Shown here piece by piece: positions 19,298-63,836 of a stretch of 64,000 nt of DNA (position 1 is its first letter; every line of letters begins with the position of its first letter). This stretch comes from a virus, in IMG/VR virus record IMGVR_UViG_3300045996_002572, positions 1 through 64,000 of that record, one strand, 5' to 3'. A program made the translations under genes and the position numbers. Below the pieces are notes generated by a model, which saw only the letters and a list, made by a program, of their open reading frames with translations, had not been told where the DNA came from and made no database searches.

Positions 19298-20248
19298 TTA
19301 CCGGCCCGGGCGGATCCCGAGCCGCAAGACTTCGTAGATATCCGCCGCTTCCGGATAGGTTCTGAGGACGGCGTCCAGGGCAGCGCGAAGCTCGACCGCG
19401 GTAGCGCCAAGGGCCTGGATCTCTGCGAACTCGACCTGGCCCACCGCCCAGCCCGCCCAGGTGTCCGGGTAGTCCGTCCAGTTGGCGAAGGAGGGCGACA
19501 GGGCAGCGATCGCGAGCGCCTGCACGGTGGAGGGCCCGGCCGGAGTTGAACCGGCGACATCCGACTTACAAGGACGGCGCTCTACCGTCTGAGCTACAGG
19601 CCCAATGCACGGGGCTCCCACCCGCTGCCCGGGATCGCCGGTCTGTCCCGCCCGCTGACTGCCAGGCTTCACCGCAGAGGGGAACGGCTGCGGCTCGCTG
19701 TCCCGAGGGAGCGAGGCCTCATCGCGAGGTCCAAGCACCTCGACTCCAGCGGTTCGCGGTGGCCGGTGCGAGGAGGGCGACTCACGAAATAGCGGTGCCC
19801 CATCAAGAGGCTCCAGGCGGACATCGAAGCAGATGTCGGGCTTCCACCGACCGCGGGGCGCTACCCCCTCTGCGCTATCGCCCGAAGCCACCCCCGCTGG
19901 CGCGCTCGCAAGTACAACTGTCGCCAGCGTCTCCCTCTCGCCCCCGGGCTGGGGCAACCTCCCGAGCGGGGCTTGGGCCCCGTACGAAACGATAGATGCT
20001 CCGGACGGCTCGCTTACAGGCTCTGCGGAGTCGGGCCGGGCGGCCTGAGCCATCGAGCGAGCCTCACTCCCTGAGGTTGCAGGGGCCGTGGCGCCGTAGC
20101 TCGCCACGGGATGTACACCGCGATTGCCGAAGCCGCGGTTGTCGGTCAAGGCAGAGAGACGGGCGCCGACCCGGTCATGGGCCGTAGCCCGCGCAAGCTC
20201 CAAACTCCGGAGGTCCGGGTCCGTGTCGACGATCACGGGGCGGTTCAC
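19298..20248 (-). CDS. Hypothetical reading frame containing an embedded tRNA-Thr gene
   Basis: 316 residues, GTG at 20248 overlapping the upstream TGA. The frame stays open through the tRNA at 19531-19603, which is on the same strand and reads as GPVAQTVERRPCKSDVAG. The N-terminal 215 residues are Pro/Ser/Gly-rich with two similar SYGA-x-AP segments; the last 75 (WTDYPDTWAGWAVGQVEFAE onward) look like a folded domain. An alternative is two genes: a 5' gene whose end has been overrun and a 75-residue gene from GTG at 19525. No family recognised. Confidence 0.5.
   Translation of the reverse strand: MNRPVIVDTDPDLRSLELARATAHDRVGARLSALTDNRGFGNRGVHPVASYGATAPATSGSEARSMAQAARPDSAEPVSEPSGASIVSYGAQAPLGRLPQPGGERETLATVVLASAPAGVASGDSAEGVAPRGRWKPDICFDVRLEPLDGAPLFRESPSSHRPPRTAGVEVLGPRDEASLPRDSEPQPFPSAVKPGSQRAGQTGDPGQRVGAPCIGPVAQTVERRPCKSDVAGSTPAGPSTVQALAIAALSPSFANWTDYPDTWAGWAVGQVEFAEIQALGATAVELRAALDAVLRTYPEAADIYEVLRLGIRPGR
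19531..19603 (-). tRNA. tRNA-Thr (anticodon UGU)
   Basis: 73 nt without encoded CCA. Acceptor GGGCCTG pairs fully with CGGGCCC (one G-U). D arm GCTC/GAGC. Anticodon loop CTTGTAA gives UGU (Thr, ACA codon). T arm GCCGG-TTCAACT-CCGGC is perfect. The anticodon stem (CCGTC/GTCGG) has one U-U mismatch. It sits inside an open reading frame in the early operon. Confidence 0.85.
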
Positions 20249-29112: not shown

Positions 29113-30699
29113 GTGACTCGGGGAGGACTCTCGCCGCGTGCCATGGCGGCGCTTGAGCTGCTGGTCGATGACTGGACCGTTTGGGCGGAAGAGCTGTACA
29201 AGATCCGAGTGCAGGGGGGGCGCCTGGAGCCGCTCATCGCGAAGGCCGTCCAACGCGCAATCTATGAGGAGGAGCTCCGGCAAATCCGGGAGAAGGGGCA
29301 GGCCGAGATCTTCTGCCTGAAGGCTCGGCGGGCCGGCGTGAGCACCGCCGAGCAGTCAAAGAGCCTGCATCAGGCGTGGAGACAGCCCTACTTCGACTGC
29401 ATCACCTTGGCCCATACCGGCGGCGCCGCCTACGAGCTGTTCGAGATCACCCGCCGGGCAGTGCGAGCCTTTCCGGGCGCTCTCCTCCCCGACACCGGCG
29501 ACAAGGACACCTATCAAGTCTCCTTCCCGCGCATGGATTCGAACTTCTTCACCGGCACGGCTGGGTCGAAGAAGGGGGTTGGCCGCGGCGCCACACTGAA
29601 GCGGGCTCACCTGTCGGAGTTCGCCCATTACGAGGATCCGATCGGCACGCTCGGCTCCCTCCTGCCGGCTCTAGAAGGCGTCCCCGAGAGCGTCGTCGTC
29701 CTGGAGACCACCGCCACCGGCTCCGAAACGCCTGCCCATGTCTACTGGCAGGAGGCGGTGGATGGGAAGAACGGCTACGCCCCCATGTTCTTCCCATGGT
29801 GGGTTTGCGACCCGGTCAAGTACCGTCGTCCGCTTCTTGCTCCGGACGAGCTCGGGGCATTAACGGAGGAAGAAAAACTTCTCATCGCGGCTCACGGCCT
29901 AGACCTGGAGCAGATCAAGTGGCGCCGCGCGATGATCGGCAAGATGCACCGCGACATGTTCCTGACCGAGTACGCGGAAAGCTCGGAAGGGTGTTGGACG
30001 GCGCCGGGTGGTATGTTCTTCGAACACGACCTGGTGACCAAGCTCCTCCACCTCGCCCCCGAGCCGCGGGCGGTGCTGCTCAACGGTTCGCTGGAGCTGT
30101 ACGATGAGAGGCCTGAGAGCGAGAGCGTAGTCATAGGCTGTGACACGGCGGAAGGAAGCAGGGATGGGCGAGGCGACCGGTCCGCCTGGGTAGCCCGGGC
30201 CGTACCTTCGGGGCGCCTGCTGGCGACCTTCGCCGACTCCGCCATCACGCCTGGCGATCTCGGTGATCTGCTCTCGACATGGGGAACCAAGTTCTCGCAT
30301 AACGGCATGCCGGCCTTCCTCGTGATCGAGAAGAATGCCCACGGCATTACGGTGCTGCGCAAGCTTCTGACACTCGACTACCCGGCCCGAAGCATCTACC
30401 ACCGCACGCCCTTGGACCGCGAGCGCGACGAGAAAACAGAACGCATCGGTTGGGCCACGACGGCCGAGAGCAAGCCGCTGATGCTCGGTGCCGGAAGGGA
30501 ACTGCTCGCCGCTGCTGCCGAGGGCTTCACGGGTACCCCCTCGGCAGCAGCCCTTCGAGATGCCTTTCGAGTCCGCAAGGACGAGCATGGGCGGGTTGAC
30601 CTCAACGGACGCGACGTGCTCGTTGCAGAGATGTTGGCCTGGATCGGCCGCACCGCGATCCCGGCTCCGGGCGAACTCCGCGTAACACGCGCCCGCTGA
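29113..30699 (+). CDS. terL: Terminase large subunit
   Basis: 528 residues from GTG at 29113 (TTG at 29098 is an alternative). ATPase: a degenerate Walker A CLKARRAGVSTAEQ (~70-83), Walker B SVVVLETTATG (~194), coupling region NGYAPMFFPWWV. Nuclease: first acidic motif VVIGCDTAEGS (~339) and later Asp/Glu patches. This is the packaging motor. The relaxed R-A-G-V-S-T P-loop is usual in many TerL families. Confidence 0.92.
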   Translation: MTRGGLSPRAMAALELLVDDWTVWAEELYKIRVQGGRLEPLIAKAVQRAIYEEELRQIREKGQAEIFCLKARRAGVSTAEQSKSLHQAWRQPYFDCITLAHTGGAAYELFEITRRAVRAFPGALLPDTGDKDTYQVSFPRMDSNFFTGTAGSKKGVGRGATLKRAHLSEFAHYEDPIGTLGSLLPALEGVPESVVVLETTATGSETPAHVYWQEAVDGKNGYAPMFFPWWVCDPVKYRRPLLAPDELGALTEEEKLLIAAHGLDLEQIKWRRAMIGKMHRDMFLTEYAESSEGCWTAPGGMFFEHDLVTKLLHLAPEPRAVLLNGSLELYDERPESESVVIGCDTAEGSRDGRGDRSAWVARAVPSGRLLATFADSAITPGDLGDLLSTWGTKFSHNGMPAFLVIEKNAHGITVLRKLLTLDYPARSIYHRTPLDRERDEKTERIGWATTAESKPLMLGAGRELLAAAAEGFTGTPSAAALRDAFRVRKDEHGRVDLNGRDVLVAEMLAWIGRTAIPAPGELRVTRAR

Positions 30700-32310: not shown

Positions 32311-33255
32311 GTGGCTACCCCCTTTCAGCGGAGAGCCATCGCGGCGGCTCTACGCCGCGGTGATGTGGTACGCCTGGACCGGATCGCCGGAGCCCGAGAG
32401 GATCTGATCACAGCCCTCTTCCTGGCTTCTATGGAGGGAGCATCCCGGGCCGTGGACGTCGCTGCCCTGGAGAAGGCACTCGAGCAGGGAGACGAGGCCG
32501 CCCTGATCCGGCTCATGCCGGCCGGCGAGTACGCCACGGCAGCCCGGATCCTCGCGAACGGCCTCAGCCCCACGCTCTCGGCAGCGGCCCGGCTGGGCCT
32601 GGAGCAGGTGGCGGCGCAGATCGGCGACGCCGGCACGATCGATCCGGCAGGGCTCACCCGGTGGCTCAGGCGCTACCGCCTCCGGCTGGGCACCTACCTG
32701 GTGAAGACCTCGGGAGAGGCGGCGCTGGAGATCCTTCGGGAGCAGGTGGGCAAGGGGTTGCTCGATCCGAAAGCGGCGGCGCGGGCGATCAAGGACGGCA
32801 TCGGCCTGTCCAAGCCGCAGGCAGTCGAGATCGGCAGGAAGGCCATCAACTGGAAGGCGCAGGGCCTGCCGGACAGCGTCATCGCGGAGCGCATGCAGGC
32901 TGAGAGGGACAAGACGCTCCTCGAACGGGCCCGCCTCTTCGGATCCGATCAGGCGTACGTGACTGCCGAGCAGGGTCAGCTTGAAGCCTGGAGGCAGCAG
33001 CTCGCGGATGGCCGCCTTGCCCCTGAAACGAGGCGGTTTTGGGGGACCCGGCAGGACGATCGAGTCTGCCCCGTGTGCGAGCCCATGAACGGGCAGACCC
33101 GTCCGCTCGGGAGGAAGTTCCGCTCGACCGAGCACAACGGCCTGGGCGAGGAAGCTTTCGACTCACCGGGGCCCCCGCCGTACGGGCCTCACACTTTCTG
33201 CCGATGCTACGTGGTGCTGTTGGCGGTGGCGGGAGAGGTGAGGCTGGCGGCGTGA
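32311..33255 (+). CDS. Minor head protein (MuF / SPP1 gp7-like)
   Basis: 314 residues, GTG start. Helical N-terminal 180 residues, then the diagnostic C-terminal box: RRFWGTRQDDRVCPVCEPMN (about 238-257) and PPYGPHTFCRCYV near the end. MuF-like proteins bind the portal and are packaged with the DNA. Its last 49 bases overlap an antisense gene. Confidence 0.88.
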   Translation: MATPFQRRAIAAALRRGDVVRLDRIAGAREDLITALFLASMEGASRAVDVAALEKALEQGDEAALIRLMPAGEYATAARILANGLSPTLSAAARLGLEQVAAQIGDAGTIDPAGLTRWLRRYRLRLGTYLVKTSGEAALEILREQVGKGLLDPKAAARAIKDGIGLSKPQAVEIGRKAINWKAQGLPDSVIAERMQAERDKTLLERARLFGSDQAYVTAEQGQLEAWRQQLADGRLAPETRRFWGTRQDDRVCPVCEPMNGQTRPLGRKFRSTEHNGLGEEAFDSPGPPPYGPHTFCRCYVVLLAVAGEVRLAA

Positions 33256-33582
33256 TCCGCTTCGAAGACCTTCGAGTGCCAGGGCGCGCGGGCAATCAGG
33301 GCTTCTAATGGGTCTCGGCTAAAATCGATCACCCGCGCCACGGTGCCGTCCGCTTTGTGGATGTAGACCTTATCGGCCCTTGCCTTGGCCCATGCTGTAG
33401 CTGCCCGCCTTGTGGGGAACAGGCGCGAAGCGCGTCGCTCCTTGACGCCTCGCTGCCCATCGGCCTCCTGAGGGGTACACATGGTACGCGACGATCAACC
33501 CGTCAGAACGGCACCACAGGATCCCGCAGTCGGTACTGCCGCAACGGAAGCACACCAGACGCCCCACGTCGCCTGCCGTCAC
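33207..33582 (-). pseudogene. DUF2188-like gene split by a one-base frameshift
   Basis: The first frame, from GTG at 33582, encodes a Cys cluster (LVCFRCGSTDCGILWC) and the start of a DUF2188 domain (YHVYPSGGRWAARRQGA). The domain then continues only in the next frame (SRLFPTRRAATAWAKARAD, VYIHKADGTVARVIDF) to the stop at 33207. A +1 shift near 33415-33435 rejoins them. Either a true broken gene or a one-base assembly insertion. Last gene of the antisense cassette in the head module. Confidence 0.6.
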
Positions 33583-33806
33583 TTCGACCTCCGCCGCAGT
33601 TCGTGAATCGCGGCCGAGGTCATCTCCCTGATCTTGATGCCGTAGAGTCGCTCCAGTTCGATCTCTGCCTTTATCGCGATACCGAGATCGATAGGGATGG
33701 GCACCAGTTTTCCGCCCTCTCGCCGGCACGGAGTAGTCACGGAGTTCGGGTCGGCTCGCGCGATCAGTACCCGCTGCCAGAGGAGGTCCGCGTACCCGTC
33801 GCTCAC
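33579..33806 (-). CDS. Hypothetical protein of the antisense head-module cassette
   Basis: 75 residues from GTG at 33806, coupled by GTGA overlaps on both sides. Beta-rich N-terminal half with LVPIPIDLGIAIKAEIELER and a C-terminal basic helix (SAAIHELRRRSK). Made with the HTH regulator, it may be its partner. No family recognised. Confidence 0.6.
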   Translation of the reverse strand: MSDGYADLLWQRVLIARADPNSVTTPCRREGGKLVPIPIDLGIAIKAEIELERLYGIKIREMTSAAIHELRRRSK

Positions 33807-34072
33807 GACGCAGACGCCCCACCAAAGCCAACGGCATCCAGCACGACCGTCGGCGGCACCCCAATCGCCTCCAGCACGAAACGTAGCGGATCCTCCGGAT
33901 CGTCGACGCTCATGGTCGAGCGGTTCCTGAGGTCGCGCACCTGCCGCTCGGTGATCTCTCCGCCGGGCGCTCCGGCTTTCCTGCGCAGTGCCGACGCGCG
34001 CTCTGCCACCTTCGCAGCACTGAGCTTCCGCTCCCGCATCTTGTCCCGCATCGCCTCGCCTATCGTGGTCAT
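33803..34072 (-). CDS. Small helix-turn-helix regulator
   Basis: 89 residues from ATG at 34072, with GAGGAG six bases upstream. The HTH (MRDKMRERKLSAAKVAERAS ... GEITERQVRDLRNRST) is XRE-like with an insertion between the first two helices. A C-terminal helix (LRFVLEAIGVPPTVVLDAVG) could dimerise. It probably represses its own promoter, whose -10 lies within the GACGCAA/TTGCGTC inverted repeat. Confidence 0.65.
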   Translation of the reverse strand: MTTIGEAMRDKMRERKLSAAKVAERASALRRKAGAPGGEITERQVRDLRNRSTMSVDDPEDPLRFVLEAIGVPPTVVLDAVGFGGASAS

Positions 34073-34351: not shown

Positions 34352-35146
34352 ATGAAGCCGAAGGTGTTGAAGGTGGCCCTCGATGGCCAAGAGGTCGAGG
34401 TGTGCCCGGTCCGCAACGGCTGGCCCGTCTGCGTGGATCCGGATGGCAACGAGCGCGAATTCAACACCGAGGACGCCTTTACCAAGCTGAAGAAGCACCC
34501 CGAGGAGCGCACAACCCTTCAGAAGCGAGCCGAGACCGCGGAGCAGGCCCTCGCCGGCCTGGCTGCGCTCGGTGACGTCGACACGATCAAGGCAGCGCTC
34601 GAAACCCAGAAGAACCTCAAGGCCGGCCAATTGATGGCGGCAGGGGAAGCCCAGAAGGTCCGTGACGACGCGGTCCGTGAGGCGACCGAGCGCATCAGGA
34701 CGATGGAGGCGGACCTCTCGGCGGCGCGATCGGAAACCGACCGCCTGGCGATCAGCCACGCCTTCCACGCATCCAAGCACTTCGCCAAGGACGACAAGGG
34801 CAACACCAAGATCCGGCTGAAGCCGTCGGCCGTCCAGGCACTCTTCGGTCACCTTTTCCGCCGCGAGGCGGACGGCACAGTTGCGGCCTACAACGGCGAC
34901 AGCCGCGTGATGTCCCACCAGAACATCGGCGACCCTGCCGACTTCGATGAAGCCCTTCAGATCCTGATCGATAAATCCGAACACCGAGACGACGTCTGGG
35001 CAGGTGTGGCTGCCAACGGCAGCGGTGCAACCGGCGGTGGTCGTGGCGGCGGCGACGGCAAGAGCATCCCGCGCAAGCAGTTCGAATCCATGAGCACGGC
35101 TGAGAGAAACAAGTTCCTCGCCAACGGCGGGGTTCCCACGGACTAG
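34352..35146 (+). CDS. Head scaffolding protein
   Basis: 264 residues from ATG at 34352. A small beta N-terminus (LDGQEVEVCPVRNGWPVC) is followed by coiled coil (~60-150, EERTTLQKRAETAEQALAGL and onward), a short conserved region (IRLKPSAVQALFGHLF) and a Gly-rich tail with a terminal helix. Position just before the coat and this make-up are those of phage scaffolds. Preceded by the triloop hairpins. Confidence 0.75.
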   Translation: MKPKVLKVALDGQEVEVCPVRNGWPVCVDPDGNEREFNTEDAFTKLKKHPEERTTLQKRAETAEQALAGLAALGDVDTIKAALETQKNLKAGQLMAAGEAQKVRDDAVREATERIRTMEADLSAARSETDRLAISHAFHASKHFAKDDKGNTKIRLKPSAVQALFGHLFRREADGTVAAYNGDSRVMSHQNIGDPADFDEALQILIDKSEHRDDVWAGVAANGSGATGGGRGGGDGKSIPRKQFESMSTAERNKFLANGGVPTD

Positions 35147-35193: not shown

Positions 35194-36357
35194 ATGCCAG
35201 ATCCGACGAACACCCTGACGGGGCTGATTCCCCACATCCATGCTGGCCTGAACATGGTCGCCCGCGAGCGCACCGGCTTCGTCGCCGCGGTCGCCCGGAA
35301 CAGCGACGCCGAGCGCGCGGCCGTGGGCCAGTCGATTCGGTACCCCATCGTGGGCACGAATCCCGCCGTGACCATCGTCCCCTCCATGACGCCGCCGACT
35401 CCGCCGGGCCAGAACATCACCTACGGAGAGATGACGATCTCCAACATGAAGGCGGTGGAGATCCCGTGGAACGGCGAGGAGACTCGCGGCCTGGAGAACG
35501 CTGGATCTTTCGAGGACGTCATGGCGCAGCAGTTCGCTCAGGGCTTCCGCACGCTCGCCAACGAGATCGAGGCCGACCTCGGCGGCGCCTACGCCTACGC
35601 CTCGCGCGCGGTCGGCACCGCTGGCACGGCTCCCTTCGGCACGCCCGAGGATCTCACGGACGGCGCTCTCGCCATGGCCGTTATGGAAGACAACGGCGCG
35701 CCGACCAACGACCTCCACATGGTGCTCGGCACCGCCGCGATGACCAACATCCGCGGCAAGCAGACCGTCCTCTACAAGGCCAATGAGGCCGGCACCGACG
35801 AGCTGCTCCGCAAGGGCACCATCGGCGAGCTCCAGGGCTTCCAGCTTCACAACTCGGGGTTTGTCAAGGCGCACACCAAGGGCACGGCGGCCAGCTACCT
35901 GGTCGATCTGCTCGCGGGCTACGCGGTCGGCACCTCCACGGTCCATCTCGACACCGGCACCGGCACGCATGTGGCCGGCGATGTGATCACCTTCGCAGGT
36001 GACACCAACAAGTACGTGATCACCACCGGCGCCGCGGGCGACGGCGACAAGGACATCGTCCTCGGCGCCCCGGGCCTGCGTGCGGCGCTCGCCGACGGCG
36101 TCGCGGCCACGACCGGCAACTCCTACCGGGCCAACATCTTCTTCCACCGGAGCGCGATCCAGCTTGTGACGCGCCTCCCCGCCATGCCCCGCGGCGGCGA
36201 CCTCGCCGTCGACACCTACACCGTCCGGGACGAGCACTCCGGCCTGGTCTTCGAGATCGCCCTCTACAAGGGCCACCTGATGAACGCCATCTACATCCGC
36301 ATCTGCTGGGGCTGGGAAGTCGTGAAGCCGGAGTTTCTCGGCATCCTGCTCGGCTAA
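35194..36357 (+). CDS. Major capsid protein, P22 gp5-like
   Basis: 387 residues. The start TLTGLIPHIHAGLNMVARER and AERAAVGQSIRYPIV match the P22-type HK97-fold coat family. A glycine/threonine-rich inserted region (residues ~245-310, with DVITFAGDTNKYVI) corresponds to the I-domain of that family. It builds the procapsid with the preceding scaffold. P22-like coats normally mature without a protease, notable beside the Ntn hydrolase downstream. Confidence 0.85.
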   Translation: MPDPTNTLTGLIPHIHAGLNMVARERTGFVAAVARNSDAERAAVGQSIRYPIVGTNPAVTIVPSMTPPTPPGQNITYGEMTISNMKAVEIPWNGEETRGLENAGSFEDVMAQQFAQGFRTLANEIEADLGGAYAYASRAVGTAGTAPFGTPEDLTDGALAMAVMEDNGAPTNDLHMVLGTAAMTNIRGKQTVLYKANEAGTDELLRKGTIGELQGFQLHNSGFVKAHTKGTAASYLVDLLAGYAVGTSTVHLDTGTGTHVAGDVITFAGDTNKYVITTGAAGDGDKDIVLGAPGLRAALADGVAATTGNSYRANIFFHRSAIQLVTRLPAMPRGGDLAVDTYTVRDEHSGLVFEIALYKGHLMNAIYIRICWGWEVVKPEFLGILLG

Positions 36358-36372
36358 GGAGGAGCCTACATC

Positions 36373-36774
36373 ATGGCTGACACACTGAAGTTGTACGCCG
36401 CGGGCGAGCCGGTCAACGGCAAGCTCTCTGTGATCGTGGATCCCGGCTCGGAGGCGGAGGCCCTCTGGCGAGAGAACGGCTATCTGCCCGAGGACGAGCT
36501 GGCCAAGCGCAAGCTCCACTCGCTCCAGGCCAAGGAGGAGAAGGAGGCGCAGGAGGCTGAGGCTGCCGCCAAGAAGGCGGAGGCGGCAGAGCAGCGCGCG
36601 GCGGTCAAGCTGGCCGAGCAGGCGGCTGCCGAGGCAGCGCTCCGAGATGCACCGCATGTCCCCGAGCCTCCCCTGGTGCCGTCGGCTCCTGTCGAGGAGG
36701 TCGAGCCGGCTCCTAAGGCCACCACTACTCCGAACAAGGGCGGTCGTCCTCGCAAGGAGAAGGGGAAGGCGTGA
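36373..36774 (+). CDS. Hypothetical head-module protein with basic tail
   Basis: 133 residues. A short beta N-terminus (LKLYAAGEPVNGKLSVIV) then an Ala/Glu/Lys coiled coil (~48-95), a Pro-rich stretch, and GGRPRKEKGK, an AT-hook-like basic end. It may bind packaged DNA or decorate the capsid. Overlaps the Ntn-hydrolase gene by four bases. Confidence 0.6.
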   Translation: MADTLKLYAAGEPVNGKLSVIVDPGSEAEALWRENGYLPEDELAKRKLHSLQAKEEKEAQEAEAAAKKAEAAEQRAAVKLAEQAAAEAALRDAPHVPEPPLVPSAPVEEVEPAPKATTTPNKGGRPRKEKGKA

Positions 36775-37379
36775 CCTGCATCGTTGGGGTGGATCTCGGG
36801 GATCGGGTGGTGATCGCTGCGGACCGGCGAGTCACCTGCGGTGACGAGTTGATTTCCGACTCCGAGGAGAAGCTGCTTGCGTTCGGGCCCTGGGTGCTGG
36901 GGCTAGCCGGCACCGTGGCCGCCAAGCAGGCCTTTCTGAAGGCAGCAGGTCCGCTGACGGCAGCCACGAGCGTTGATGAGTTCACCGCCGCCGCCAGCGA
37001 CGCACTAAGGGCCGCCGACTTCAATCTGCACAGTGACCGCGGCGGCCCAAAGGATCACGGTACGTCCTGCGTGCTCGCTTCGCGATTCGGTATCGGGATC
37101 CTGTACTCGTCCGGCGGGGTCACGATGCTCGAGCAGGGCCGGCCCGTGGCGGTCGGCTGCGGATCGCCGTACGCCCTGGGCTACCTGACCGGACGAAAGA
37201 TCGATGAGACGGAGGTGGCGGGCGCCATTCGAGCCGCATGCGATTGGAGTGTCTTCTGCGGCGGTGAGGCGGTAGTCAAGGTGGTGCACCGAGCAGGGCT
37301 GATTGGCCGAGGGCTCGCGTGCGCTCCTGCAGTTTCCTGGACTGCAAACCTGGCGACGGTCGCCCTCGTGGAGCAGTGA
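36771..37379 (+). CDS. Proteasome-beta/HslV-like Ntn hydrolase
   Basis: 202 residues, GTG start. After Met removal the chain begins TCIVGVD, giving an N-terminal Thr. Asp lies at position 17 (VIAADRR) and Lys at 33 (SEEKLLAF), the exact T1-D17-K33 catalytic spacing of proteasome beta and HslV. Later AVGCGSPYALGYL and AACDWSVFCGG match the Ser129 and Asp166 regions. No propeptide or ATPase partner. Encoded between coat and head-completion genes, so a capsid maturation or virion-associated peptidase is plausible. Confidence 0.82.
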   Translation: MTCIVGVDLGDRVVIAADRRVTCGDELISDSEEKLLAFGPWVLGLAGTVAAKQAFLKAAGPLTAATSVDEFTAAASDALRAADFNLHSDRGGPKDHGTSCVLASRFGIGILYSSGGVTMLEQGRPVAVGCGSPYALGYLTGRKIDETEVAGAIRAACDWSVFCGGEAVVKVVHRAGLIGRGLACAPAVSWTANLATVALVEQ

Positions 37380-37816
37380 TGGCCCTCACGGTCGAGGACG
37401 GCACCGGCATCACGGGCGCAGACTCCCCCAACTCGTTGGAGGAGATCACTGCGTACTGTGCCGCTCGACCGAGGATGGCGGGCTGGGCGTCGCTTTCGGA
37501 GGCGCGGCAGGAAGCTGCAGCGCGGGACGCTTCCCGCCGCATGGAGAAGGTGTTTCGCCACCGGATCACAGGGCGGCGAGTGACGGCGGACCAGGGCCTT
37601 TCCTTCCCGAGCGCCGGCGCCTGGGATGCTCGGGGGCTGTCCATCCTCGGCACGTCGGTCCCAGCAGCGTGGAAGGAGGCGCACTGCGAGATGACCTACA
37701 GGGTCGCTTTCGAAGAGCAAGCGCCGATCGAAAGCGTGTCGGATCTCCTTGAGGAGTTCCTCTTCGACCTGGTACAGCCTGCCGGGAAAGTGCTCGTGCA
37801 GCAGGGGTGGGCCTGA
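37379..37816 (+). CDS. Head-completion protein (DnaT-like annotated family)
   Basis: 145 residues. VEDGTGITGADSPNSLEEIT at the start, ASRRMEKVFRHRITGRRV and LSFPSAGAWDARG in the middle match the phage family often labelled DnaT-like ssDNA-binding; its position after the coat marks it as a head-tail connector. Start ATG overlaps the previous stop (TGATG). Confidence 0.72.
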   Translation: MALTVEDGTGITGADSPNSLEEITAYCAARPRMAGWASLSEARQEAAARDASRRMEKVFRHRITGRRVTADQGLSFPSAGAWDARGLSILGTSVPAAWKEAHCEMTYRVAFEEQAPIESVSDLLEEFLFDLVQPAGKVLVQQGWA

Positions 37817-37818
37817 CC

Positions 37819-38190
37819 GTGGCAGCCTACATTACCGCCGAGGAGCTTCGCCTGGATCTTTCCGGAAGGGGCAAGCGCCTTGAGACCCTGATGCCGCCGG
37901 GCGCTTCCTCGCCGGCCGACATCACTCGGCTTTGCGCAACCGCCTCCGCGGTCCTGGATGGAAGGCTCGCGGCCTGCCCCTACGTGGTGCCCATCGACAC
38001 CACGGGCAACGAGCCGCTCGCGGCCCTGCTGCGAGCTCGCGCCACAGATCAGGCGCTGATCGAGTTGAGCGACGGGCTCGACGTGCGCCCGGATTTCATC
38101 CGCGCCGCACAAGAGCGGGTGGACGCCTGGATCAAAGATCTTGCCGCCCGGAAGGCTCACCTTCCCGGCTACACGAGGATCGTGCCGTGA
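37819..38190 (+). CDS. Head-tail joining protein, DUF1320-like
   Basis: 123 residues from GTG at 37819; GTG at 37807 would add four residues. AAYITAEELRLDLSG, then an alpha-helical core (DITRLCATASAVLDGRL) and ARATDQALIELSD fit DUF1320-type connector proteins. Small, in the right place between head and tail genes. Confidence 0.6.
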   Translation: MAAYITAEELRLDLSGRGKRLETLMPPGASSPADITRLCATASAVLDGRLAACPYVVPIDTTGNEPLAALLRARATDQALIELSDGLDVRPDFIRAAQERVDAWIKDLAARKAHLPGYTRIVP

Positions 38191-39709: not shown

Positions 39710-41043
39710 GCCTCGGCTTCTTCCAGAACCAGACCGGCAACCCGGCGGCGGAGTTCCTGCGCCGCATGGCCGTACAGACAGACGCCGGCATTCCCGCGAC
39801 TTCGGGGTGGGTGGACTTCTACAGCAACGGCGGGCCCTTCGCCATCACGCCGACGGTGATCCCGCGAGGCATCATCGGTCGGAGCGGCGAGCGCCAAGCG
39901 CCGATGCTGGGCCCTATCGAGATCGGCAACACACCGATGGACATGGGCGATCTCAATGTGGGCAAGGAACAGCTCCTCGCGATCGCGGCCTACCACCGGA
40001 AGTACACGGCCACCACGCCGACTGCTGGCGTCTACCGCTACGTCATCTCGAGCGCCGGCGCCACGGACGCCGAGACGCTTCTCTCGATCCTCACTCACTC
40101 CGGGACCGGTAAGCCCTTCCGCTTGACCGACTGCATGCCAGCGGGCTACAGCCTCGCGGCCCAGCCGAGCCAGAACCTCCGCCTGATCGTCAACATGCTG
40201 GCGACTCGGGCCGACTTCTATGGGTTCGCCACTCAGACCGAGGGCACGGGATCCACGCTCCCGATCTTCCGAGGTCAGGTGGCGGCCTGGTCGGCCAGCG
40301 ACAAGGATGTCGTCATCCTCGTGGTGGACGATACGCCTCTGTCCGTCAAGTCGAAGATCGCGGCAGCTACCACCTTCGACGGTGCCGCGATCTCCGGCAC
40401 GGCGGGCGAGTGGATCCTCCTGAACGATGGAACCGCGGTCAGCATGCCGCTGGGCGGCTGGGCCGACCAGGGTTCGATCTACTGGCCGGCGAGCCCGACG
40501 CTCGCAGCTAACGACGAGTTTCTGATCCCGGCGACTATTCCTCTCTGGACGCCGTCCTTCGCGACGGTTCAGCCACTGCCGGTGATCAACACGCGCGTGC
40601 TCATCAACGGCTCCGTGGTCAACACCGAGGGCTGGACGATCACGGCCAACAAGCCCGGCGCCGTCGTTCTGCGTGGTACCAACAAGCAGGGGTACGCAGT
40701 CCTCGACCGCGGCGAGTCGCAGATCTCGGTGCAGATTCAGCGGCGCCTCGTGGACCTGGACCTGCAGAATGCCCTGCTCCACGGTACGCCGGTCCAGATG
40801 GTCCAGGAGTGCCGCGGCGGCCAGATCGGCTCGACCTCCTACTACTACCGGCAGGTGGCGCTCTTCCCGAAGCTCATCGCCGAGGGCGCTCTCTTCGACA
40901 CTCCGGCCGGCGGTCAGGACGACCAGGAGAACCTCACCCTGCAGGCCTACGAGTCGAGCACCAACCTCTCCTACGAGGGCAACAACTACACCAAGCCCGT
41001 CACCTGGCTGATCGACACCGACGTCGCCAGCATCGCTTCGTAA
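39706..41043 (+). CDS. Major tail protein (tail tube)
   Basis: 445 residues. Long beta-rich protein with repeated Gly/Thr segments and Ig-like middle part (NEGWTITANKPGAVVLRG). Ends VTWLIDTDVASIAS then TAA. Size, position and lack of a sheath-type motif suggest the tail-tube subunit of a long flexible tail. The tape-measure frame follows in the same phase after the stop. Confidence 0.65.
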   Translation: MSLGFFQNQTGNPAAEFLRRMAVQTDAGIPATSGWVDFYSNGGPFAITPTVIPRGIIGRSGERQAPMLGPIEIGNTPMDMGDLNVGKEQLLAIAAYHRKYTATTPTAGVYRYVISSAGATDAETLLSILTHSGTGKPFRLTDCMPAGYSLAAQPSQNLRLIVNMLATRADFYGFATQTEGTGSTLPIFRGQVAAWSASDKDVVILVVDDTPLSVKSKIAAATTFDGAAISGTAGEWILLNDGTAVSMPLGGWADQGSIYWPASPTLAANDEFLIPATIPLWTPSFATVQPLPVINTRVLINGSVVNTEGWTITANKPGAVVLRGTNKQGYAVLDRGESQISVQIQRRLVDLDLQNALLHGTPVQMVQECRGGQIGSTSYYYRQVALFPKLIAEGALFDTPAGGQDDQENLTLQAYESSTNLSYEGNNYTKPVTWLIDTDVASIAS

Positions 41044-50492: not shown

Positions 50493-50565
50493 CGCAGGGT
50501 GGCGCAGTCGTTAGCGCGCGGGGTTCATACCCCAGAGGTCGCAGGTTCAAGTCCTGCCCCTGCAA
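50493..50565 (+). tRNA. tRNA-Met (CAU) with initiator features
   Basis: 73 nt without encoded CCA. The acceptor (CGCAGGG with CCCTGCA) pairs fully except position 1-72, which is C-A, the defining bacterial initiator mismatch. The anticodon stem has three G-C pairs (GGG/CCC) under the CAT loop, again initiator-like, although position 28-42 is G-A. D arm GCGC/GCGC, T arm GCAGG-TTCAAGT-CCTGC. Confidence 0.85.
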
Positions 50566-56619: not shown

Positions 56620-57039
56620 ATGAAACTGATTCTTCAGCGAGGGCCAATCGATTGCGGAGTCGCGACCCTGGCCATGGTCGCTGGTGTGTCCTACGAGGAG
56701 GCGGAGAGAGAGGTCGCGCCGCACATTGGGAAGGGCGGCCTCCACGCAATCGCTATTGAGGGCGCTCTCGCTCGTATGGGCTTCGCTGTGCAGACGTTCT
56801 GGCGTCCGCCGATCTTCGGGGTGACCACATTCTCACCTTGTCCCTTCGGCTGGCCACCGCGGCCATTCGCGCCGGCTCACATCGCCTTCATGCTCGCTCG
56901 CGGCGCTCACTTCGTGGCGGTCGACCACGAGGGCACGATCCTCGACCCGTCTGGCGCGGCGCCTCCCGATCCATCGTTGATGGAAACCATCATGGGTGTG
57001 TGGCGAACCGCCGACATCACCGCACGGAAGGGGGACTGA
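56620..57039 (+). CDS. C39-like cysteine peptidase
   Basis: 139 residues. QRGPIDCGVATLAMVAG (residues ~6-22) has the catalytic Cys in the C39-type context, and GAHFVAVDHEG plus ILDPSG supply His and Asp. Stand-alone, without ABC transporter. Next to the holin-like gene it may cut peptidoglycan peptides or act on envelope proteins. Confidence 0.68.
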   Translation: MKLILQRGPIDCGVATLAMVAGVSYEEAEREVAPHIGKGGLHAIAIEGALARMGFAVQTFWRPPIFGVTTFSPCPFGWPPRPFAPAHIAFMLARGAHFVAVDHEGTILDPSGAAPPDPSLMETIMGVWRTADITARKGD

Positions 57040-62803: not shown

Positions 62804-63053
62804 GGTGCGCTCCTTCTGCGGCCTCCGCCGCCTCCAAGCTCCGGGCCATCTCCACCAGGGCCCTGGGGTTGTCCATCGCTCTCCACTCTCCGAGCTTCTC
62901 GCACCACCACTGTCCGGCCTTCCCATCTCCTCGAATGCGGTAGCGTCCCTCTGGAGCTCGGGGAGGAGTTGGGACTTCATGCCAGGCGAGGGGATCCCGG
63001 AGCGTTGGGGAAGGCGCTGGGGCTGAGACTTCGAAGAGGGATGGCTGGGTCAT
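62793..63053 (-). CDS. Hypothetical small protein downstream of integrase
   Basis: 86 residues. RYRIRGDGKAGQWWCEKLGE suggests two strands; the helix RALVEMARSLEAAEAAEG ends it. Four-base overlap with the integrase stop. May be an excision-related partner but carries no recombination-directionality signature. Confidence 0.45.
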   Translation of the reverse strand: MTQPSLFEVSAPAPSPTLRDPLAWHEVPTPPRAPEGRYRIRGDGKAGQWWCEKLGEWRAMDNPRALVEMARSLEAAEAAEGAHHGL

Positions 63054-63836
63054 GACTTCTGCGTCAGCAGGCGTGCGGCTGGGTTACACAGTGGGTGGCG
63101 TTCCTCTACGGAATCTAGAACGCCGGCGGCTGACCGGTGAGTGGTCATCGTGGCGATGTCTTTGACCGGTGTTCCTTCCCGTGCCGCGCTGGTGATGAAT
63201 CCGGAGCGCAGCGAGTGCCCCGCGAATTCGGCCGGGTCCAGGCCCGCGAGCTCGGCGCGGCTCTTCACCACCCGGGCAATGGAGTAGGGGTGTATCGCAG
63301 TCGCCTGGACCCGGCCCCATCGATCGATGGGGCGGAAGATCGGGCCCGACGTGATCCCGCTTGCCGCGAGCCAGGCCCGCAGCGCGACCGCGGCATCGCC
63401 GAGGACGGGGAGCGCCACCCCCTCGCCCGCCCTGATCTGACTTTGACCGTCGCAGGTGGAAGAGAAACCCCTCGCTGTCTACCGCCTCGAGGTCCTCGAC
63501 CGCGGCGCCGGCCACCTCTGAGCGCCGACGGCCGCCGGACTCCCAGGCGAACCGGAGCAAGGCAGCGTCCCGCAAGCCCGTGAGGTCCTCGCCGCACGTC
63601 GCGAGCATGGCCTCGAGGATCTCGCCGGTTGCCGCTCGCATCTTCCGGGGGCGCACCCCGCGCCGAGCGCCGATCCGCCGGAGGCTGGACAGCAGATCTC
63701 GGAGTGTTGCGCTCCGGCAGGTGTTCGCCTCTTTCGTAAAGCCGAGCATGTTGTGAGCCGCGCTGATCGAGGACAACCGCCGGTTGATCGTCGCGAGCGT
63801 CAACGGGCCGAGCTTCCGCTTGACCCCTCGCGCCAC
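63050..63836 (-). pseudogene. int: Tyrosine integrase, frameshifted, catalytic Tyr replaced by Ser
   Basis: First frame (GTG 63836; N-terminal homology extends upstream to about 63870): LATINRRLSSISAAHNMLG, GLRDAALLRFAWESGGRRRS with Arg I, HLRRSKSDQ with the beta-Lys. A one-base insertion in the G-run near 63415-63420 moves the rest to another frame: ALPVLGDAAVALRAWL, AGHSLRSGF (HxxR), MTTHRS, then VLDSVEER. In the family the residue aligned with this Ser is the nucleophile Tyr. Not functional as read, unless the shift is an assembly error and another Tyr serves. Confidence 0.8.

Follow-up and report, generated by a model that had tools for sequence, protein, structure and literature searches.

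What is a proteasome-type hydrolase doing among the head genes of a phage with a P22-like coat? The question is raised by a 202-amino acid open reading frame (ORF) in the window, a stretch of 64,000 nucleotides from the IMG/VR virus record IMGVR_UViG_3300045996_002572. The original prediction recognized in this ORF a proteasome/HslV-type Ntn hydrolase encoded within the head genes, and suggested that it might be an unusual head-maturation or injected peptidase. Family profiles and a confident predicted fold bear out the identification, while comparison with related phages points to another kind of role. In our preferred reading, to which we give about an even chance, the gene encodes a phage-borne Thr-peptidase and is a late-expressed, optional, cytosolic single-gene cassette (a moron), providing accessory proteolysis instead of obligatory coat or scaffold cleavage.

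The Ntn gene and its head operon

Judged by its start, ribosome-binding sequence, overlaps and codon usage, the ORF at 36771-37379 on the plus strand is a real gene, and its coordinates, frame and start had been correctly predicted. It begins with a GTG codon at 36771, immediately preceded by AAGGAGAAGGGG, and its codon usage is coding-like. The ribosome-binding sequence sits inside the 3' end of an upstream gene for a 133-amino acid protein, whose TGA stop is overlapped by the first 4 nt of the Ntn gene. At the other end, the TGA of the Ntn gene and the ATG of the head-tail adaptor gene Ad1 overlap by 1 nt. By these overlaps and the position of the ribosome-binding sequence, the Ntn gene is translationally coupled to the post-coat gene before it and to Ad1 behind it. 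The operon reads, in order:

29143..30699, plus strand: probable terminase large subunit (TerL), by homology to TerL-position genes of relatives such as locus L072
30718..32304, plus strand: portal protein (phrog_145)
32311..33255, plus strand: head morphogenesis protein, Mu F-like (Pfam and PHROG profiles)
33582-34072, minus strand: two short genes of 75 and 89 amino acids, between head morphogenesis and scaffold
34352..35146, plus strand: scaffold-type protein (phrog_784 / phrog_206)
35194..36357, plus strand: P22-like major coat protein (PF11651, 8.2e-11; phrog_283, 1.4e-87)
36373..36774, plus strand: Ala/Glu/Lys-rich protein of 133 amino acids, in the place of the relatives' small post-coat gene
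36754..36770, plus strand: ribosome-binding sequence AAGGAGAAGGGGAAGGC, read directly from the sequence, before GTG 36771
36771..37379, plus strand: proteasome/HslV-type Ntn hydrolase of 202 amino acids (GTG start, family profiles, predicted fold)
37379..37816, plus strand: head-tail adaptor Ad1 (phrog_477, 2e-21; PF20557)
37807..38190, plus strand: second head-tail adaptor (phrog_195, weakly Mu gp36-like)

The coat and Ad1 matches confirm the predicted location between a P22-like coat gene and head-completion genes, and further tail-module genes, with the tape measure, lie 3' of the second adaptor. Profile searches of the phage's own 74-kb record, which is possibly incomplete, returned neither an HslU-like AAA_2 or ClpX-type ATPase (PF07724) nor an S78 prohead protease. 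PADLOC gave no match.

The 133-amino acid neighbor matches no family among the Pfam and PHROG profiles. Its C-terminus is basic (PNKGGRPRKEKGKA) and includes an AT-hook-like stretch, GGRPRKEKGKA, that is absent from the matching gene of relatives. We considered this tail as a conserved cleavage or DNA-binding element and rejected the idea because it is not common to the relatives' post-coat genes. Several other features of the region are recorded here for completeness. In Rhizobium phage P106B (L083), a trio of short genes on the reverse strand precedes the coat gene, in a place similar to that of the minus-strand pair in the window. Read by eye, the product of 63053-63418 on the minus strand resembles the C-terminal part of a tyrosine recombinase, suggesting a temperate phage, and the protein of 56620-57039, which begins MKLILQRGPIDCGVATLAMVAG, resembles a C39-type cysteine peptidase. 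Genes for tRNA-Thr(TGT) and tRNA-Met(CAT) are predicted at 19528-19603 and 50493-50565, respectively.

Predicted fold and active site

The homology of the Ntn protein to the proteasome family is, by sequence comparison, far above chance. It scores 32.1 bits (1.1e-7) against the Pfam Proteasome family PF00227, above the curated cutoff of 22.4, and 2.9e-19 against phrog_1040, annotated as peptidase HslV family. Its sequence matches in the PDB include spinach proteasome beta-5 and the BPH structure 5ovu. Structure prediction had been proposed as a check, and the AlphaFold2 model, built with 60 aligned sequences, has the Ntn fold of beta sheets with helices H1-H4 (mean pLDDT 86.7, about 97 in the core; pTM 0.82). 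The best Foldseek matches of the model are all HslV or proteasome subunits, with E values of about 1e-10 and a probability of 1.00. The core spans approximately residues 1-173, the C-terminal tail (177-202) is of low confidence, and a loop at the "pore loop" site (about 82-98) is poorly predicted.

In mature numbering, where the Thr directly after the initiator Met is residue 1, Thr1, Asp17 and Lys33 occupy the exact positions expected of the nucleophile set, as originally noted. Across an alignment of 60 viral relatives, Asp17 is kept in 59 and Lys33 in all 60; Thr1 is likewise kept in 60/60, partly by selection since the rows were trimmed at this residue. The supporting residues depart from what had been predicted. 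The residue taken for Ser129 is a Cys (the 60 relatives have Ser in 42 cases and Cys in 14), and the region described as Asp166-like aligns a Ser at mature position 159, followed by a Cys at position 162, the equivalent of Ser169. In place of the Ser129-Asp166-Ser169 set of the 20S beta subunit, which is not definitive of the wider PF00227 family, the protein thus carries Cys, Ser and Cys. Since the viral relatives differ from one another at these positions, the altered set is a trait of the group and not a defect of the window protein. It may nevertheless mean that the protein's activity is low or not proteolytic.

Such an active site could also belong to a non-proteolytic or regulatory Ntn protein, be it a connectase-like transpeptidase, an amidohydrolase, or a decoy competing with host HslV for HslU. 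Connectase is an example of this fold working as a ligase (PMC8665760), and the record encodes no unfoldase. Against this, the near-invariance of Thr1, Asp17 and Lys33 indicates that the nucleophile chemistry is retained, and nothing points to any specific other substrate, so that we consider a non-proteolytic role improbable.

If the protein is instead the accessory peptidase that we favor, its life history might run as follows. It would be made late, along with the coat and connector proteins, and host methionine aminopeptidase would remove the initiator Met to expose Thr1, there being no propeptide. The subunits would probably form a small HslV/BPH-like ring in which Thr1, activated by Lys33 and Asp17, could cleave peptides or unfolded protein, either without a phage-encoded unfoldase or with one borrowed from the host. 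Its accessory task in the infected cell may be the clearance of misfolded or surplus protein of phage or host origin.

Presence, absence and position in related phages

The obvious guess for a peptidase gene located beside the coat gene, in a record without an S78 prohead protease, is an obligatory maturation enzyme that cleaves coat or scaffold. A prohead protease of that kind is required by its phage and acts on a cleavable coat or scaffold segment. The most direct evidence on the first point comes from the relatives L004 and L019. Only the former carries an Ntn gene, yet their portals are 100% identical over 182 shared residues, their scaffolds 99.6% and their coats 99.3%. The Ntn gene of L004 lies between the genes c0 and c1 (94.7% and 96.2% identical between the two phages), whereas L019 has a clean junction in which c0 is followed directly by c1. 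No homolog was found elsewhere in the 39-kb L019 contig (G013), which may be incomplete. Because sister phages build near-identical heads without such a gene, it looks optional and not an essential head protease, with the proviso that this pair, as well as Sinorhizobium phage phiM5 discussed below, represents the PPH group of homologs and not the subfamily of the window protein, to which the conclusion carries over by inference.

On the second point, no difference at the N- or C-terminus of the coat tracks the presence of the Ntn gene, and scaffold lengths overlap between phages with and without it. Only one coat group carries an N-terminal extension, of 37 residues, which may be a gene-call artefact. 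It was considered as a sign of processing and rejected, as it occurs in this group whether or not the Ntn gene is present. In phiM5, the scaffold is annotated in particles despite an encoded PPH, and P22-type coats and scaffolds are not known to be cleaved. The pattern of presence, absence and position therefore argues against an essential head protease, and we regard obligatory maturation, as originally suggested, as highly improbable.

The same phage bears on the proposal of a peptidase that is packaged in the virion, or injected, and acts in the next host cell. The phiM5 record marks 15 gene products as particle proteins, including portal, scaffold, coat and a neighboring SGNH enzyme. The PPH gene, situated between TerL and portal, lacks the note "detected in phage particle proteome". 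While its position in the head module and the particle annotation of the coat-near SGNH hydrolase would suit a virion-borne enzyme, the unmarked phiM5 homolog and the placement of large-phage homologs among metabolic genes speak against it, and we found nothing direct in the literature on the detection of HslV-like phage proteins in virions. A virion-packaged or injected peptidase is, in our estimation, very unlikely.

Taking the coat as anchor, a phrog_1040 homolog is present in 9 of 50 whole coat-related contigs, one of the nine being cut short by the end of its contig, and none of them is more than 8 kb away from the coat gene. Mapped onto the coat tree, the Ntn gene undergoes 13 changes against a shuffled mean of 16.6, a scattered distribution that flips repeatedly, although the tree is a quick one and truncated contigs may make some absences false. 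Caulobacter phage DMCA (L082) has the order coat, small gene, Ad1 without an Ntn gene. The positions ("seats") occupied by the homologs, three of which are prophage-type loci from GTDB genomes, are:

before TerS/TerL: L072, L074, L241
flanked by the portal and head morphogenesis genes: L002
downstream of the coat and small genes: L004, L007, L008, L014, L053, L234, L240

In relatives without an Ntn gene, the gap between coat and Ad1 may instead hold an HNH nuclease, a GDSL esterase, or lectin-like or BNR proteins, and we therefore regard it as a cargo site. BNR, GDSL-esterase and laminin-G-like proteins are found there at 10749-12722 of L242, 10645-12024 of L227 and 11229-12914 of L037, and could be head decorations with sugar-directed activity. 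Homologs also occur outside head modules, as in E. coli phage Bas73, where a PPH gene (40115-40555) lies beside the holin gene, and in large phages. It is the absence from DMCA, the count of 9 in 50 contigs, the L004/L019 pair, the scattered coat tree, the cargo-prone gap and these non-head seats that lead us to prefer the optional cassette, a choice supported further by the search of the record of this phage, which found neither an HslU/ClpX-type ATPase nor an S78 protease.

Two further readings keep the enzyme closer to assembly. Given the over-representation of these genes in modules for head, packaging and neck, the product could be assembly-coupled but dispensable, processing or quality-controlling a minor head or neck component (the connector, a small post-coat protein, or misassembled scaffold or portal) and thereby raising yield. 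A scan for PPHs gave 80 loci, of which 61 lie no more than 5 kb from a gene for a head, packaging or connector protein, a proportion biased by seeding the scan with four coat-adjacent short PPHs. The frequent junctions are Ad1-PPH-Hc1 and c0-PPH-c1, and L146 and L179 retain the block c0-PPH-c1-c2 in combination with another type of coat. Different Ntn subfamilies also meet at like junctions: c1 is preceded by a PPH in L004, L008 and L146 and, directly, by an AAH-like protein in L240, while head morphogenesis is preceded by a PPH in L165 and, directly, by an AAH-like protein in L002 and L115. The translational coupling described above would fit as well. On the other side, c0 and c1 remain 95-96% identical with and without a PPH between them, unrelated cargo enters the coat-Ad1 gap, and many phages have their homologs elsewhere. 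On balance, we consider a dispensable assembly role unlikely, though it is the main rival. A scan with AAH-like proteins found head or TerL genes nearby in only 2 of 39 loci, within the limits of P22-coat-based profiles.

Judged from gene order, the head, packaging and neck bias and the occurrence of two subfamilies at like junctions are more than a neutral moron need show. A bolder reading, which we hold to be doubtful, is that several subfamilies of phage homologs, that of the window protein included, have been repeatedly and independently recruited to the same head-neck junctions as an assembly-linked neck/packaging peptidase, whose Ntn ring would act on connector or packaging intermediates. 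If true, virion assembly would for the first time have a proteasome-type enzyme dedicated to it. The recurrent seats, the two subfamilies at like junctions and the clean presence/absence sisters offer natural comparisons for tests of function.

Place among known proteasome homologs

The gene type is less unusual than had been supposed. Fuchs, Alva & Lupas described the phage proteasome homolog groups AAH and PPH in 2021, reported AAH in many phages and mentioned phage-derived genes flanking these homologs, whose function was then untested (PMC8665760). In the passages of that paper covered here, a bias towards head modules was not encountered. GenBank has PPHs in at least 430 records of phages, for the most part those of Salmonella and Escherichia. 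In four Aeromonas phages of the Plateaulakevirus type (L084, L086, L087 and L088, 7405-8858), two neighboring homologs from separate subfamilies, with lengths of 183 and 275-294 amino acids, may form a paired complex.

Among the established families, HslV (ClpQ) shares with the window protein the Thr1/Lys33 chemistry and provides its best Foldseek matches. The protein nevertheless falls far below the NCBIfam cutoffs for HslV (17.8 against 157.75 bits and 20.3 against 137) and has no HslU-like ATPase in its record. The archaeal or bacterial 20S beta equivalog cutoffs are similarly distant (32.1 against 224 and 17.2 against 191.9 bits), and on these curated thresholds both assignments are ruled out. 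BPH (5ovu/5ovs) gives the second-best PDB sequence match (2.3e-5) and a fold match with a TM score of 0.69, but identity is about 20% and BPH is a bacterial and not a phage gene.

Closer comparison is possible with the phage groups. By profile the protein is a clear member of phrog_1040, a wide grouping whose profile is matched by PPH- and RPC-like proteins too. With PPH and RPC, proteasome homologs of phages and hosts (PMC8665760), it has in common that it is a phage-borne group I proteasome homolog of a kind often found in head, packaging and neck modules. PPHs are only about 140 amino acids long, and both PPH and RPC lack helix H2 (PMC8665760), whereas the window protein has 202 residues and predicted helices at H1 and H2 (49-57, 59-64 and 68-81, before the second sheet). 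It receives an RPC-like score of 27.2 bits and no reported PPH-like score; length, helix content and profile together rule out a PPH.

The highest profile score, 50.3 bits (2.6e-13), is obtained with AAH-like sequences, a set assembled in the present analysis and not that of the 2021 authors, so that its equation with AAH is our inference. Single-protein scans of IMG/VR, GTDB genomes, GenBank phages and plasmids yielded no close relative, and in the tree the protein stands by itself on a long branch, of 2.11 changes per column, with the AAH-like set on one side and the PPH-like set on the other. It resembles AAH in its Thr1-Cys-Ile start, its approximate length (180-200 amino acids in the collected set), the lack of a propeptide and the core helices H1-H4; it differs in its deep branching and in sharing at most 28% identity with any relative found. 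By these profile comparisons, the window protein scores best as AAH-like and is a very divergent representative of the phage proteasome homologs known since 2021.
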